A DNA stretch of 64,000 nt from an uncultured Microcaldota archaeon (GTDB lineage: Archaea > Micrarchaeota > Micrarchaeia > Micrarchaeales > Micrarchaeaceae). Under the pieces are notes generated by a model. That model was not told the DNA's origin, made no database searches, and saw only the letters and a program-made list of their open reading frames with translations. Of this stretch, positions 10,652 to 48,557 are shown piece after piece (positions within the stretch are counted from its first letter, which is position 1; every line of letters starts with the position of its first letter). The stretch is taken from positions 124,001 to 188,000 of the forward strand of contig CAISDH010000033.1 in NCBI GenBank assembly GCA_903884115.1, written 5' to 3'. The translations under genes and the position numbers were made by a program.

Positions 10652-12061
10652 ATGCTCCCGTTCATATCTGCAATGCTGGCTTTCTCTGCCGTTGCGCTCA
10701 TGCTCACGCTCGTGCTAAGCAAGAAGCACAGCAGGGGCATCGCAGTAACAGCGGCATTTCTCATGCTGCTGACTACGATTGCGATGCTCTACATCTCCGT
10801 GCTTGCCGGCCATGTCGGCTTCACGGAGAGTTACGCCTACATAAGTTCGCTTATGATAACCTTCGGATTCAACGTCGGCGCAGTCTCTCTCATATTGCTG
10901 CTCATGTCATCGGCCGTTCTGCTTGTGGCATCACTGTCCGGCAATCCAGAACGCAGCAGGCCAAAGACCTCATGCCTGCTTATAGAGCTATTCCAGATCT
11001 CTGCGATAGGGCTTTTCTCTTCTGCAAACCTTTTCATGTTCTTCATCTTCTGGAGCATCGGCGTCGTATCGATGTTCCTGATGATTAACGTGCTCGGCTC
11101 CTCGAACAGGATGCGCGCCTCTATCAACTTCCTCATTTACGAGCTCTTTGCAGGCGCATTGATCCTCTTCGGCATAATGCTGATCTATTTCCATACCCCG
11201 CTGCGCTCGTTCGACATACAGTACATCATAAGCAATGCCAGCAGCATAAATCCCACCACCCAGGCCCTGATATTCCTTGCTTTGTTCGTCGGGTTCATGA
11301 TAGGCATGCCGATATTCCCCATGCACCTGTGGCTTCCTGACGCGCATGCGGAGGCGTCGACACAGGGATCCATGCTGCTTTCAGGAATCTTCACTCAATT
11401 CAGCGCATTCGGGATGCTGCTTCTGTTCACGATGCTGCCCGTATCCTCAAAGTATGCCGCATATGTCGCCGCGCTCGCCACGGTATCTGCGGTGTATTCT
11501 GCGCTAGTGCTGCTGCGTCAGAGCGACATCAAGCGCATTGTGGCATATTCCTCCATGGCAGGAATGGGGATAATACTTCTGGGATGTTCGGCCAGCAGCA
11601 TCAGCACTTCCGGCGCGCTCTTCGCGATATTCTCGCAGGGGCTTACAGCTGCACTGCTGTTCCTTGCGGCCGGCTCAATAAAGCACATTTTCGGCGAGCA
11701 CGACATACGGCTTCTCAAGGGCGCAGTTGTCGATGCGGGACCTACAGTGTATGCGTTCCTTGCCGGTGCCCTTGCGCTTGTCGGATTCCCGCTGACTACT
11801 GGCTTTGTAGGCTATCTTCTCATATTCCTTGAAGCCGTGCACGCATTCGGAGCTTACGGAGCAGTGGCCCTTCTCGCCCCGTTGCTCGTGGGCGCATACC
11901 TGTACTTCACGATCAGCAGTTCAATGCTTTCATCTAAGGGGCACTCCGACAGCGTAGGCCTCATAGGCAGCACGCAGTATCTGGGCTATGCCTTGCTGCT
12001 GCTGTCCATATTCTTATTTGGCATTCTACCATACATATTGCTCGGCCTGTTGAAAACGTGA
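10652..12061 (+). CDS. nuoM: Complex I-type subunit M (antiporter-like)
   Basis: FMIGMPIFPMHLWLPDAHAEASTQGSMLLSGI and IKRIVAYSSMAGMGI motifs. Confidence 0.95.
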   Translation: MLPFISAMLAFSAVALMLTLVLSKKHSRGIAVTAAFLMLLTTIAMLYISVLAGHVGFTESYAYISSLMITFGFNVGAVSLILLLMSSAVLLVASLSGNPERSRPKTSCLLIELFQISAIGLFSSANLFMFFIFWSIGVVSMFLMINVLGSSNRMRASINFLIYELFAGALILFGIMLIYFHTPLRSFDIQYIISNASSINPTTQALIFLALFVGFMIGMPIFPMHLWLPDAHAEASTQGSMLLSGIFTQFSAFGMLLLFTMLPVSSKYAAYVAALATVSAVYSALVLLRQSDIKRIVAYSSMAGMGIILLGCSASSISTSGALFAIFSQGLTAALLFLAAGSIKHIFGEHDIRLLKGAVVDAGPTVYAFLAGALALVGFPLTTGFVGYLLIFLEAVHAFGAYGAVALLAPLLVGAYLYFTISSSMLSSKGHSDSVGLIGSTQYLGYALLLLSIFLFGILPYILLGLLKT

Positions 12062-24273: not shown

Positions 24274-24370
24274 CGGGCCCGGTGGGATTTGAACCCACGG
24301 CCATCAACTTGCCTCTGAAGCCTTTGCTTCTTAGAAGGTTGCCGCTCTGTCCAAGCTGAGCTACGAGCCC
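24274..24370 (-). tRNA. tRNA-Arg(TCT) with a 22-nt intron after position 37
   Basis: Minus strand folds as GGGCTCG TA GCTC AGCTTGGACA GAGC G GCAAC CTTCTA[AGAAGCAAAGGCTTCAGAGGCA]A GTTGA TGGCC GTGGG TTCAAAT CCCAC CGGGCCC G. Acceptor, D and T stems intact; anticodon stem 4 of 5 pairs (G27.A43 mismatch); CCA not encoded. Confidence 0.9.
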
Positions 24371-36741: not shown

Positions 36742-36945
36742 ATGATATCAAAACAGACGATAAAGAGGATGGTGAACAGGAACGGCATTGCGATAAGCGA
36801 CTCCGCCGCAGACGCGCTCGCCCGCATGCTGGAGAAGAAGGCTAAGAAGATAGCTAGCTATGCCGTCAAGAGGGCAAAAGCGAGCGGCAGGAAGTCCGTT
36901 CTTGAAGACGATATCGATACCTACAGGATAAAGTTCGGTGACTGA
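36742..36945 (+). CDS. Archaeal histone
   Basis: ISDSAADALARMLEKKAKKIASYAVKRAKASGRKSVLEDDIDTYRIKF histone fold; start taken at ATG 36742 (GTG 36718 also possible). Confidence 0.88.
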   Translation: MISKQTIKRMVNRNGIAISDSAADALARMLEKKAKKIASYAVKRAKASGRKSVLEDDIDTYRIKFGD

Positions 36946-37485
36946 ACGCCAGAAACTCCATTCATCGCCAGAAGCTCCGGCAAGGTGCTGCTGGAATACG
37001 GCACGCAGGGCAGGAAGACCATCAAGCTGTGGGAGGAAAAGCAGGGCGGCACCCTGGAGACGACGTTCAACCACGAAGGCGCGATACTGGCGCAGCAGCT
37101 CCTCAACAACACAACTACAGAGCACCGCATAAAATCAACTCTTGGCGCAGCATCGGTGCATAGCGCAATGGAGAAAGCGTATGAAGAAGTAAAACTTAAC
37201 AGGCAGTGTCCGCACTGCGGCGAAACCAGTCTTGTAAGATTCGCTGATTCTGTAGTTGCAAGCAAAGACCTTCCCGTGATGCCCCTCTACTCCTGCAGCG
37301 TGTGCAAGAAGCGCAGCTACTACCTTACCGACGAGTATCTTGAGTTCCTGGTGAAGAACAACGCCTCTCTGTTTGAGGGCGCAGAACTGGCAGAGCTTGA
37401 GAAGGACTCGCAGGCATTCATGCACGAGATCAAGGAGTACATAATAAGAATCTTTGCAGCGAAACACATAGAGCGAATCAGGTGA
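36946..37485 (+). CDS. Zinc-ribbon protein; probable ACG start (GTG 36985 is the canonical alternative)
   Basis: CPHCG...CSVCKK zinc ribbon. The frame is open from ACG 36946, directly after the histone TGA, with GGTGA upstream. Confidence 0.65.
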   Translation, partial: TPETPFIARSSGKVLLEYGTQGRKTIKLWEEKQGGTLETTFNHEGAILAQQLLNNTTTEHRIKSTLGAASVHSAMEKAYEEVKLNRQCPHCGETSLVRFADSVVASKDLPVMPLYSCSVCKKRSYYLTDEYLEFLVKNNASLFEGAELAELEKDSQAFMHEIKEYIIRIFAAKHIERIR

Positions 37486-38671: not shown

Positions 38672-38926
38672 TCACTGTTTAGCATCAATTACTGCTTTAT
38701 GCCCCTCTATGAGCCTCTTTGCAGCATCGCCTGCCGGAGTCCTCATCGTGTACGCTCCGCCGGCATACGTGGTGTTGCAGTGCTTGCATCTCCATATGGA
38801 GGTGCCTATCCTGCGCACAGCGGTCTTTCCGCATGCATCGCACTTGTAGAGCGTGCGCTTCTCCTGCATGATCTTGGCTGCACGCTTCCTTATGCTTGTG
38901 CCGTATCTTATGCTTGAATTTGCCGT
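38672..38926 (-). CDS. rpl37ae: Ribosomal protein L37Ae; probable ACG start
   Basis: KCDACGKTAVRRIGTSIWRCKHCNTTYAGGAYTMRTPAG. The in-frame upstream sequence [ACG]ANSSIRYGTSIRKRAAKI matches the conserved L37Ae N-terminus; ATG 38869 would remove it. Confidence 0.88.
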   Translation of the reverse strand, partial: TANSSIRYGTSIRKRAAKIMQEKRTLYKCDACGKTAVRRIGTSIWRCKHCNTTYAGGAYTMRTPAGDAAKRLIEGHKAVIDAKQ

Positions 38927-38930
38927 ACAA

Positions 38931-39722
38931 TCACACTCGTTTCTCTATGAGAGATTTTAGCTCTACATGCTTATTAAATGATATGCCGACGAGCTCCTCT
39001 ATCTCTTTCTGGTAGAAGCTGCCTCTGAGGCCCTTCTGCATCGACCTTATGCTGCTACCGTCGTTAGTCACGGTCAGCCTCGCATCAGAAGCGATCTCCT
39101 CATCAAGCGAGGGGTCAAGCAAGATGCTTCCGCCTATTTTCGCAAACGTCGTGGAGGTGACTATGTTGTCTATCTTGAGCCTGTTCTTCCTGTTCTCGTG
39201 TATCACCTTGCCGTCCTCATAGGTTGGCATAGTGGAGTTGAGCAGCGCGCTCATTGCCGCAATCTCGCACGCGTCGAATAGGTTTCCACCGTAGTTAAGC
39301 ACGTACACGTCTATGTAAACGCCCCATGCCTTCCCCTCCTCTATGAATAGGCTCTTCAGGTCTATGCAGCTGCCTGCGCGTATGCCCCTGTCTGTGACCC
39401 TTGAAAGCTCAATGGCCTCTGGGGTTGGCGGCCCGCTCTCATATTTTGAGTGTGCCAGCGGCAGAAGCTCAGCAGCAACTGTCATGTTGCCCTGGTCTGG
39501 AGTGTCAGTCATTGGCGCCTCAAGCGCTATCTTGACTCCTGCAAGGACCTTTGTGCGGCCCAGCTCCACCTGCGCGGATCCTTCTGCGTTGCCCATCGTG
39601 CCAGGGGTGATGCGCATGTTGCGGAAATCGAACATGCCCCTGCTGTCCTCGCGCATGTTCTTAGCGAGCATGCTCTTTATGTAATTGACTTTTATCATGT
39701 CTATGCTTTCCATTTTCATCAA
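38931..39722 (-). CDS. rrp42: Exosome complex subunit Rrp42
   Basis: RNase PH fold (GSAQVELGRTKVLAGVKIALEAP); downstream of Rrp41. Confidence 0.93.
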   Translation of the reverse strand: MMKMESIDMIKVNYIKSMLAKNMREDSRGMFDFRNMRITPGTMGNAEGSAQVELGRTKVLAGVKIALEAPMTDTPDQGNMTVAAELLPLAHSKYESGPPTPEAIELSRVTDRGIRAGSCIDLKSLFIEEGKAWGVYIDVYVLNYGGNLFDACEIAAMSALLNSTMPTYEDGKVIHENRKNRLKIDNIVTSTTFAKIGGSILLDPSLDEEIASDARLTVTNDGSSIRSMQKGLRGSFYQKEIEELVGISFNKHVELKSLIEKRV

Positions 39723-40456
39723 CTCTCGTATTTCTTTGATATGCTATCGTAATTCTCCTTAAGCGCATCTATCTGCTTCTTGGATATATCCTTGCCTGCG
39801 CTCAGCACCATGCTTATGCCTCTTGACAGCTGCTCCCTGCTAAGCCCGCCGTCCATCTGGAGCAGCAGTATCTCGCCGTCGCGCGGCGCTACAGCTATCG
39901 GCATGTCGCTGTCAGAGTAGTTGTCCTCTATCATGTTGAGGTCAAGGGCAAGCTTGTCGTCTATCCTGCCCACAGACACCGCATAGACAAGATCCCTCAT
40001 CGGTATGCCCGCGCTTGCCATGGCAACAGAGGCGGCAGTTATGCCAGCGGCGCGTGTTCCTCCATCGCCCTGCAGCACCTCTACGAATATGTCTATCTCG
40101 CTGCCTGGGAACTCATTGAGAAATACGACGTTCTCGAACACCTCCTTGATGACTTTTGATATCTCCGTGGATCTTCGTGAAGGGCCGCTTCTCCCGTGTT
40201 CAGAGAGGTTTGAGAACGGCGACATCGCGTACCGGCATTTTATTATCGCCTTGGAAGGGTCCATCATGTGCTTTGGCATCGCCTCCTTCGGTCCGTACAC
40301 TGCGGCAATTATCTTGTTGTTGCCCCATTCCACATACGCGGATCCGCTGGCATTGTCGATCACGCCTGCCTTTATGCTTAAAGGTCTAAGCTCGTCGAAG
40401 TTCCTGCCGTCCAACCTCTTGTTGTTCACTATCAATTCTGGCTTGTTGCTTTTCAT
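39719..40456 (-). CDS. rrp41: Exosome complex subunit Rrp41
   Basis: RLDGRNFDELRPLSIKAGVIDNASGSAYVEWGNNKIIAAVYGPKE; DIFVEVLQGDGGTRAAGITAAS. Confidence 0.95.
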   Translation of the reverse strand: MKSNKPELIVNNKRLDGRNFDELRPLSIKAGVIDNASGSAYVEWGNNKIIAAVYGPKEAMPKHMMDPSKAIIKCRYAMSPFSNLSEHGRSGPSRRSTEISKVIKEVFENVVFLNEFPGSEIDIFVEVLQGDGGTRAAGITAASVAMASAGIPMRDLVYAVSVGRIDDKLALDLNMIEDNYSDSDMPIAVAPRDGEILLLQMDGGLSREQLSRGISMVLSAGKDISKKQIDALKENYDSISKKYES

Positions 40457-41082
40457 ATAGTTCCCTTTTCAATATCATTTCCAATGATGCCTTTCTCTTT
40501 CTCGAGCATCTCTTTGATGCGCATTGTAAGTCCTGGCACGTGCGCCTCCTCGCATACGCGCTCAATCGCCGCGACCGCACGCGCGCTATTCTCCCCGCTG
40601 ATCCATACCAGTCCGTTCATGCCGACCACTATGCGCACGGCAGTGAGGTCTGCTATCTGGTTGATCATCGTGTTGCTCTTTCCTATCAGCCGCGGCACCT
40701 TCGAGGGCTTCACCTTCATCAGTATGCCACCGTGCAGCTCGCTTGACCCTTCCAATATGGCCGTCCTCCTGTTTTCAACATCCCTTATCACTGCGCTTAT
40801 GATGCTGCCCTTTTCCGGAGCAGTCTCGTACTTGCGCAGCACTATAAGGCCGCGCACAAAGGATGACAGGTCAACTATGCAAACGCTGCCCTTGGCTGAA
40901 GCAACCGTGCCCACAACAGAATCGCCAACATTCGCCTTCCACGTTCCTTCCAATGGTACAATCTCGCGTTCATCGTAGATGCCCAGCATCTTCGAGTAGG
41001 TGTTGCCGCCCTGAACGTATGAATTTTCCAGCCTGATGGGCCTTGATGCTATAAGTTCTCCAGGTACTACAATCTTTTTCGT
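40453..41082 (-). CDS. rrp4: Exosome RNA-binding subunit Rrp4; probable ACG start
   Basis: N-terminus [ACG]KKIVVPGELIASRPIRLENSYVQGGNTYSKMLGIYDEREIVPLEG, S1 and KH domains (KVPRLIGKSNTMINQI). ORF track begins at internal ATG 40989. Confidence 0.9.
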   Translation of the reverse strand, partial: TKKIVVPGELIASRPIRLENSYVQGGNTYSKMLGIYDEREIVPLEGTWKANVGDSVVGTVASAKGSVCIVDLSSFVRGLIVLRKYETAPEKGSIISAVIRDVENRRTAILEGSSELHGGILMKVKPSKVPRLIGKSNTMINQIADLTAVRIVVGMNGLVWISGENSARAVAAIERVCEEAHVPGLTMRIKEMLEKEKGIIGNDIEKGTI

Positions 41083-46223: not shown

Positions 46224-46480
46224 ATTCCTGCTCAGCGATTGGCTCAGAACTTGGCTCAGAACTGAACGTGTAGCTCTGTTGCGTCTGCAGAGCCTCCATA
46301 CACCACTTTGTACCGCTCTACAAGTATCTCTTCATTTACGAGAGAACACTAAATTTACCTGACTACACTAGTGCGTATTTGCGGCAACGTGGAACCCCTT
46401 GTCTCCTCGGGAGTTCTTCTGTTACAGAAAAAAACATAAAGCTTTTAAGGCTTATCAGCCGAATACACCCAGGCGATCAG

Positions 46481-47533
46481 ATGGGAGACTACGTCAGTGA
46501 TGTCATAGGTCAGACAAAGGAAGCCGAACAGGAGTTCGGTTCAACGCAGATAAAGATTGTCACAGTTGGCATAGGAGGTGCTGGCTGCAACATCGTTAAT
46601 CGGCTGATTAAGGTCGGCGTAAAGGGCACGGAATTCATAGCCGTGAACACGGACGCGCAGCATTTTAAGATAATAGACGACCGAATAAAGAAAATCTTGA
46701 TAGGAAAGAGCCTGACAAGAGGGCTAGGCGCGGGCGGAGACCAGATGGTTGGCGCAAAGGCTGCCGAAGTTGACAGGCCTCTGCTGGAAAGCGCATTCTC
46801 TGGAGCGCAGCTCGTGTTCCTGTGCGCAGGTATGGGTGGCGGAACCGGAACAGGCGCAATGCCTGTGGCCGCACAGATCGCGAAGGAGCAGGGCGCGATA
46901 GTCATATCAATGGTTACTTATCCATTCGACCTTGAGCGCGTTAGGAAGGTCAAGGCAGAGGAAGGCATACAGGCGCTTAGGAAGTTCAGCGACACCGTAG
47001 TCATACTGGACAACAACAGGCTCGTCAAGCTCGTTCCGAACTTGCCGATGACCGAGGCGTTTGCGCTTGCCGACGACGTTGTGTCTAAGGCAATAGGCGG
47101 ACTTGTGTGGACCATTACACAGCCAAGCTTGATAAACATAGACTTTGCTGACGTGCGCAGCATACTGGGCCACGGCGACGTCGGATTCATTGCTGTAGGA
47201 AGCGGAAAGGGCACAGACAAGGTCAACAGCGCATCAGATTCAGTGCTGAAGAACAGGCTGCTCGATGTCGACTTCGAGGGTGCTTCTGGCGCACTGATAC
47301 ACATCTCTGGCGGCTCTTCGATGACAATCGGAGATGCGATAAAGGCCGGAGAGATCATATCGGAGCGCATGGACAGCAAGGCCAACATCAAATGGGGCGC
47401 GAGGCTCATACCGGGCTACGACGATCAGATAGAAATAGTCGCGATCGTCGCGGGCGCGAAGGGCTCGAGCATAACTGGAAGATTGGAGGAGAAGCGCAAG
47501 CAGCCGTACTCCGACCTGGAGCTTGTAGGTTGA
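46481..47533 (+). CDS. ftsZ: Cell division protein FtsZ, copy 1
   Basis: GIGGAGCNIVNRL, GMGGGTGTGAMPVAAQIAKEQG, NIDFADVRSIL; start refined to ATG 46481. Confidence 0.95.
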   Translation: MGDYVSDVIGQTKEAEQEFGSTQIKIVTVGIGGAGCNIVNRLIKVGVKGTEFIAVNTDAQHFKIIDDRIKKILIGKSLTRGLGAGGDQMVGAKAAEVDRPLLESAFSGAQLVFLCAGMGGGTGTGAMPVAAQIAKEQGAIVISMVTYPFDLERVRKVKAEEGIQALRKFSDTVVILDNNRLVKLVPNLPMTEAFALADDVVSKAIGGLVWTITQPSLINIDFADVRSILGHGDVGFIAVGSGKGTDKVNSASDSVLKNRLLDVDFEGASGALIHISGGSSMTIGDAIKAGEIISERMDSKANIKWGARLIPGYDDQIEIVAIVAGAKGSSITGRLEEKRKQPYSDLELVG

Positions 47534-47537
47534 TTTC

Positions 47538-48557
47538 ATGACAAACATGGAAGATAACGAATTCGTCGCAAAGCTTGCTGTCGTAGGCCTCGGAGGAATG
47601 GGCAGCAACCTAGTGAACAGGCTCTTCACGAACGGCATAAAGAGTGCCACAACCATCGCAATGAACACTGACGCCAACCACCTCAACATGATAAGGGCGC
47701 ACAAGCGCATCCTTATCGGCAAGGAGCTTACGCAGGGTTTGGGTGTCGGTGGCTATCCAGAGCTCGGAGCCAAGGCTGCAGAAGCGAGCAGCAGGGAAAT
47801 AATGAGCCTTATAGAGGGCTATGACATGGTCTTCCTCGCTGCAGGTCTTGGTGGCGGAACAGGCGGAGGCGCTGCACCAATAGTTGCAAAGCTCGCCAGG
47901 GAACAAGGATCGCTTGTAGTGGCGTTCGTTACATATCCGTTCTCATTGGAAAGGAGCAGGAAGACCAAAGCAGACTGGAGTCTCCAGCAGCTAAGCAAGA
48001 ACGCAGACACGACGATAGTGATAGAGAACGACAGACTGCTCAGCTATGCGCCTAACTTGCAGGTCGAAAAGGCATTCGAGCTTGTAGACAACGTTGCAGC
48101 CAACGCAGTGAAGGGCATCGCAGACACGATAACAATGCCGAGCCTGATAAACCTCGACTTTGCTGATGTAAGGGCAGTGCTGCGCGACGCTGGTACGGCA
48201 ACGATAAACATCGGCCATGGCTCTGGTCAGGACAAGGTGGAAAAGGTCATAAAGTCAACGCTTGCGCATCCGTTGCTGGATGTTGACAGGACCGGCGCAA
48301 AGAGCGCGCTTGTCCATGTTTCAGGCAGCGAATCCCTGACAATAGAGGATGCTACGAGAGTCGGTGCTGGCGTGACGGACGGCCTTGATCCAAGGGCTAA
48401 CGTGATATTCGGCGCAAGGCTCGTGCCTGAGCTCGGAGACCAGATAAACGTGATGTCTGTAATCACAGGAGTCACCCCGAGATTCAACACCGCGAAGCAC
48501 CTTTCGAGCACGGCGGAGATGGACACAAGCTTCATCGCAGGCATAGAAAGCATGTGA
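47538..48557 (+). CDS. Cell division protein FtsZ-like, copy 2
   Basis: GLGGMGSNLVNRL, GLGGGTGGGAAPIVAKLAREQG, NLDFADVRAVL. Confidence 0.92.
   Translation: MTNMEDNEFVAKLAVVGLGGMGSNLVNRLFTNGIKSATTIAMNTDANHLNMIRAHKRILIGKELTQGLGVGGYPELGAKAAEASSREIMSLIEGYDMVFLAAGLGGGTGGGAAPIVAKLAREQGSLVVAFVTYPFSLERSRKTKADWSLQQLSKNADTTIVIENDRLLSYAPNLQVEKAFELVDNVAANAVKGIADTITMPSLINLDFADVRAVLRDAGTATINIGHGSGQDKVEKVIKSTLAHPLLDVDRTGAKSALVHVSGSESLTIEDATRVGAGVTDGLDPRANVIFGARLVPELGDQINVMSVITGVTPRFNTAKHLSSTAEMDTSFIAGIESM

Follow-up and report, generated by a model that had tools for sequence, protein, structure and literature searches.

It was asked where and how translation of rpl37ae, which encodes ribosomal protein L37Ae (eL43), begins in this micrarchaeal genome. 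The gene lies on the minus strand of the window, which is the whole stretch of 64,000 nucleotides that was analysed and belongs to contig C33. The minus strand around its start reads ...AAACGAGTGTGATTGTACGGCAAATTCAAGCATAAGATACGGC..., and this start region occurs once in the genome. The earlier note had proposed that the start codon is ACG at 38926-38924. Comparison with orthologues supports this proposal, and the same comparison in other genes points to a wider use of non-canonical start codons.

The reading frame of rpl37ae

Read from the ACG (38924..38926, minus strand), the frame encodes 84 amino acids up to the stop codon (38672..38926, minus strand), with the translation T-ANSSIRYGTSIRKRAAKIM(38869)QEKRTLYKC.... 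An in-frame TAG was found six sense codons (AGA AAC GAG TGT GAT TGT) upstream of the ACG. The first canonical start codon in the frame is the ATG at 38869 (38867..38869, minus strand), 19 codons downstream of the ACG. Inspection of the sequence confirmed that no ATG, GTG or TTG occurs in this frame between the TAG and the ATG at 38869, as the earlier note had read it.

A Shine-Dalgarno-like signal, GTGAT (38930..38934, minus strand), ends 3 nt before the ACG. The upstream gene rrp42 (38931..39722, minus strand), which encodes an RNase PH-like subunit of the exosome, was delimited from the open reading frame list and the gap analysis. Its stop codon TGA (38933-38931) sits within the GTGAT and ends 4 nt before the ACG, the distance given in the earlier note. 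The order of the minus-strand cluster is an SBDS-like gene, rrp4, rrp41, rrp42, rpl37ae and an rpoP-like gene. These names were given from protein content, supplemented for rrp42 by the cluster context and for rrp4 and L37Ae by Pfam. Elsewhere in the window, on the plus strand, an adjacent pair of genes (46379-47533 and 47538-48557) reads as FtsZ-like proteins.

Orthologue starts and protein evidence

The orthologue set combined 30 relatives with 80 loci from named genomes and gave 109 micrarchaeal loci after removal of the gene's own locus; some of these loci share genomes, and 96 distinct sequences are represented. The codon aligned with the ACG was ATG in 94 loci, TTG in 13 and GTG in 2, and ACG was found at this position in this genome only. 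The starts of relatives thus fall exactly at the position of the ACG. Chance can be excluded as the origin of the rpl37ae ACG, because it stands exactly where all 109 loci have ATG, TTG or GTG.

After the start codon the orthologues continue with the conserved segment (M)AN.SIRYG..IRK. The homologues carry RYG-x-[ST]-[IL]-RK, in agreement with the conserved L37Ae N-terminus to which the note had appealed. In Pfam PF01780 (L37Ae/eL43, cut-off 21.9 bits), the protein read from the ACG scored 84.8 bits with a match from residue 7, and that read from the ATG at 38869 scored 64.7 bits. Solved archaeal and eukaryotic eL43 chains aligned from query residue 5 or 6. The invariant columns of L37Ae are R7, Y8, G9, R13 and K14, together with C29, C32, C47 and C50 of the zinc motif (CxxC...CxxC); those from R7 to K14 are included only if translation begins upstream of the ATG at 38869.

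The arrangement of GTGA followed by 4 nt was the single commonest among the orthologues (28 of the 96 distinct sequences). The signal itself was rightly noticed in the earlier note; its spacing, which had been called short, is the usual one. GTGAT was called Shine-Dalgarno-like from its sequence and from the orthologue spacing; a pattern search of the sampled stretches for the 3′ end of the 16S rRNA gave nothing usable. The rpl37ae ACG is thus one base from ATG, stands at the orthologue start position, follows a signal at the usual distance and has no canonical start before it.

Other candidate non-canonical starts in the genome

The earlier note implied that another gene begins with ACG, and this was borne out by rrp4, in the same cluster, whose ACG (41080..41082, minus strand) lies 2.2 kb upstream of rpl37ae. 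The coding region from this ACG to the stop codon comprises 209 amino acids (40453..41082, minus strand; Pfam), and the start was assigned by the homology and Shine-Dalgarno test. GTGAT at 41090-41086 precedes it, and the TGA of the SBDS-like gene (41089-41087) lies four nt upstream of the ACG. The aligned start is ATG in 25 of 29 relatives, and three further relatives have ATA (two) or AGA (one) at the aligned position with an ATG 1-2 codons later. The Pfam ECR1_N_2 match covers residues 3-45 of the protein and begins upstream of the first ATG (residue 32). By codon-usage scoring, rrp4 and rpl37ae belong to those genes of the 232-kb contig that have the largest amounts of coding-like sequence before the first canonical start. 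In rrp4 of the relative G004 (L270), ATA was observed at the aligned start, with no canonical start within eight codons.

A third ACG (36946..36948, plus strand) appears to begin an unnamed gene with CxxC motifs (36946-37485) and is aligned with GTG in the orthologue of G006. This gene directly follows the stop codon of a histone-like gene, with GGTGA at 36937-36941, and its first canonical start lies 13 codons downstream. A DUF357 gene (C51:29259) has an ACG aligned with ATG in G006 and G011. On these comparisons, the ACG starts of rrp4, rpl37ae, the 36946 gene and the DUF357 gene are regarded as solid candidates. Those of a histidine phosphatase (C51:18866), where AGGAGAT precedes the ACG, and of an ABC ATPase (C33:192833) are probable; the N-termini of these two proteins are less informative. 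The ribosomal protein S4 gene rpsD (C33:202046, plus strand; window coordinate 78046, and so outside the window) has ATC as its start codon, preceded by GTGA at a distance of four nt, and the aligned start is ATG in G003 and TTG in G009.

Further cases came from a scan in which near-cognate codons were sought after GTGA-type signals. A CTG at C33:56065 was not kept, since in G008 and G003, too, the homologues start close to the canonical codon downstream. The ACG codons before a rad50-like gene (C33:225903) and an L23-like gene (C33:35424) were judged spurious, with a canonical start at the expected N-terminus. Strong matches of shadow frames that overlie rRNA genes had no meaning and were left out.

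Comparison with sister genera

The sample comprised 594 kb (58%) of this 1.02-Mb, 57-contig genome and, for each of five relatives belonging to other genera (G003, G006, G008, G009 and G011), about 400 kb. The best-matching named relatives of the genome are Candidatus Micrarchaeota metagenome-assembled genomes (MAGs). In the homology test, genes lacking a canonical start were sought where a relative has one. The presence of a Shine-Dalgarno signal was a criterion of the combined test, and a list built without it has the same leading cases.

Solid ACG starts were found in 4 of 461 testable genes here, versus 0 of 1544 in the five sister genomes (Fisher p=0.003), none of whose testable genes had a convincing ACG start. 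ACG was the most frequent near-cognate start in this genome, at roughly 1% of testable genes. When the search was led by the signal, ACG after a strong signal with no earlier canonical start in frame occurred 7 times here versus 0, 0, 0, 0 and 1 times in the sisters. Other codons after strong signals in upstream open frames were CTG (9 in G006), ATA and ATT (6 and 3 in G009) and ATT (6 in G008); these raw counts include chance matches.

Among individual sister genes, named from a reading of the translated N-termini without family search, CTG starts were found in metG (G003), a PIN-domain gene (G008), a metG-beta-like gene (G006) and the aIF2-alpha gene (G011). An ATC start was found in fen1 (G006) and ATA starts in nmd3 and pheT (G009), and a further gene of G011 starts at ATT or CTG. 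The G011 gene that reads as aIF2-alpha, an initiation factor subunit (G011:C1:61526, minus strand), has its apparent CTG start 100 codons before the first canonical start.

These observations would fit a relaxed start-codon rule in the family with lineage-specific preferences (ACG in this genus; CTG, ATA, ATC or ATT in the sisters), touching about 1% of genes, including core genes of translation and RNA decay. We hold this generalization with about even confidence.

Alternative explanations

The ACG of rpl37ae might be an artefact of assembly, sequencing or strain mixture, the genome truly having ATG there. The assembly is a MAG in 57 contigs with an estimated contamination of 2.74%, and the ACG is known from this one assembly, the relatives compared being other genera. 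Nevertheless, the same change recurs at four or more homologous starts, which are spread over two contigs, and five similar MAGs gave none in 1544 genes. Furthermore, a candidate T-to-C change in a stop codon was found in only 1 of 219 strongly matched genes, a level like that of the sisters (0-1). We consider an artefact at rpl37ae improbable. Consensus error is an unlikely source of the ACG starts in general, and it is still conceivable for any single gene.

It is more improbable still that translation begins elsewhere. The ATG at 38869 has in its favour that it is the first canonical start in the frame, but it was rejected, because the protein would lose IRYGTSIRKR, which holds the invariant alignment columns R, Y, G, R and K. 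Another in-frame near-cognate codon inside the gene would likewise remove part of the conserved N-terminus. A TTG at 38930, in another frame, is canonical and lies shortly before the ACG; however, it abuts the GTGA directly with no spacer and would require an unexplained +1 frameshift, and no such TTG precedes the ACG of rrp4.

In plant organelles, genes including those for ribosomal proteins have a genomic ACG at a conserved ATG position, and several of these ACG starts undergo C-to-U editing at the mRNA level. The genomic ACG is the same here, and editing to AUG would mend it, as it would turn CTG into TTG; yet this is the least credible account of all, since editing cannot mend the ATC of rpsD or the ATA, ATC and ATT starts of the sister genera, and C-to-U mRNA editing of the organelle kind is, to our knowledge, not established in archaea.

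Proposed initiation on ACG and the initiation machinery

The reading that we prefer is that rpl37ae starts at the ACG at 38926-38924 by mispaired initiation with the initiator Met-tRNA, helped by a strong Shine-Dalgarno signal, as part of a wider habit of the family; we regard it as very likely on the sequence evidence. The only initiator tRNA found is present in a single copy, has the anticodon CAT, A1-U72 and the GGG/CCC anticodon stem, and matches that of G011 at all but one base (99% identical). An altered initiator tRNA was therefore rejected: the features are normal, and the anticodon does not pair with ACG. In G001 the initiator tRNA was matched in two halves (query 1-39 and 39-75; G001:C13:11398-11436 and 11081-11117, minus strand) about 280 nt apart, which suggests a gene with a long intron. 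Within the window, a tRNA gene (24274-24370, minus strand) whose anticodon region carries an intron-like insertion scored 51 bits with the Rfam tRNA model and was missed by ARAGORN; several other tRNAs of this genome resemble it.

In archaea, aIF1 discriminates against non-canonical starts, as worked out in S. solfataricus and P. abyssi (PMC6237735, PMC8211752). The machinery there is the same as here, namely a Shine-Dalgarno-positioned 30S subunit, Met-tRNAi and aIF1. Of 30 relatives, 28 have the factor, and so does this genome, where its sequence is ordinary; its loss therefore does not explain the relaxed starts.

The signals of rrp4, rpl37ae and rpsD each contain a TGA stop, 4 nt before the start codon, and ribosomes that terminate at these stops, or at the stop directly before the 36946 gene, could help initiation. 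By gap analysis, a coupled stop and start was found in only 3 of the 6 ACG cases, and about a quarter (26%) of all genes are placed close after an upstream stop. Coupling as the sole cause of the ACG starts was rejected; it is a likely aid and not a requirement, because no stop lies close upstream in the DUF357, phosphatase and ABC cases.

With a normal initiator tRNA and an ordinary aIF1, mispaired initiation is the simplest account. The GTGAT would position the ACG in the P site, and ribosomes ending at the rrp42 TGA inside it may assist initiation. The ordinary initiator Met-tRNA (CAU) would then initiate on ACG with a single mismatch, C:A, at the middle position of the codon, so that the N-terminal residue would be Met. 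More widely in this archaeal family, near-cognate starts may be tolerated when the ribosome-binding signal is strong. In bacteria, ACG is as a rule a very weak start codon, which counts against this explanation. We infer initiation at the rpl37ae ACG, the insertion of Met and compensation by signal strength and coupling from sequence comparisons.

Relation to known systems

A search of the open literature, with incomplete coverage, found no archaeal ACG start, which is weak evidence of absence. In prokaryotes, ribosome-binding signals are stronger at GUG and UUG starts (PMC5622118), which fits mispaired initiation with a strong signal. As here, a weaker start codon is paired with a strong signal and decoded by the initiator Met-tRNA. 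That study covers AUG, GUG and UUG and never mentions ACG, whereas the mismatch here is at the middle position and recurs in one genome. Yeast ALA1 is reported to be translated from ACG (PMC2909995), so that ACG serves naturally as a start codon in a cellular gene, as here. It differs in that initiation involves eukaryotic scanning and the upstream start is an alternative one that yields a second isoform, whereas the ACG of rpl37ae is the only plausible start.

Implications

Near-cognate initiation is already known; what is notable here is that the codon is ACG, that core genes are included and that the starts recur. ACG is absent from the start-codon list of NCBI table 11, and near-cognates of the kind found in the sisters are seldom called by standard gene finders. 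Gene finders therefore truncate genes that begin with ACG, in this genome rpl37ae by 19 residues and rrp4 by 31, and annotated N-termini in DPANN archaea need checking against orthologues. If confirmed, ACG would serve an archaeon as a working chromosomal start codon in genes that are presumably essential, and would do so with an ordinary initiator tRNA. It could then be tested directly to what extent the stringency of start-codon choice in archaea, whose initiation core is shared with eukaryotes, depends on the strength of the signal, on stop/start coupling and on aIF1.
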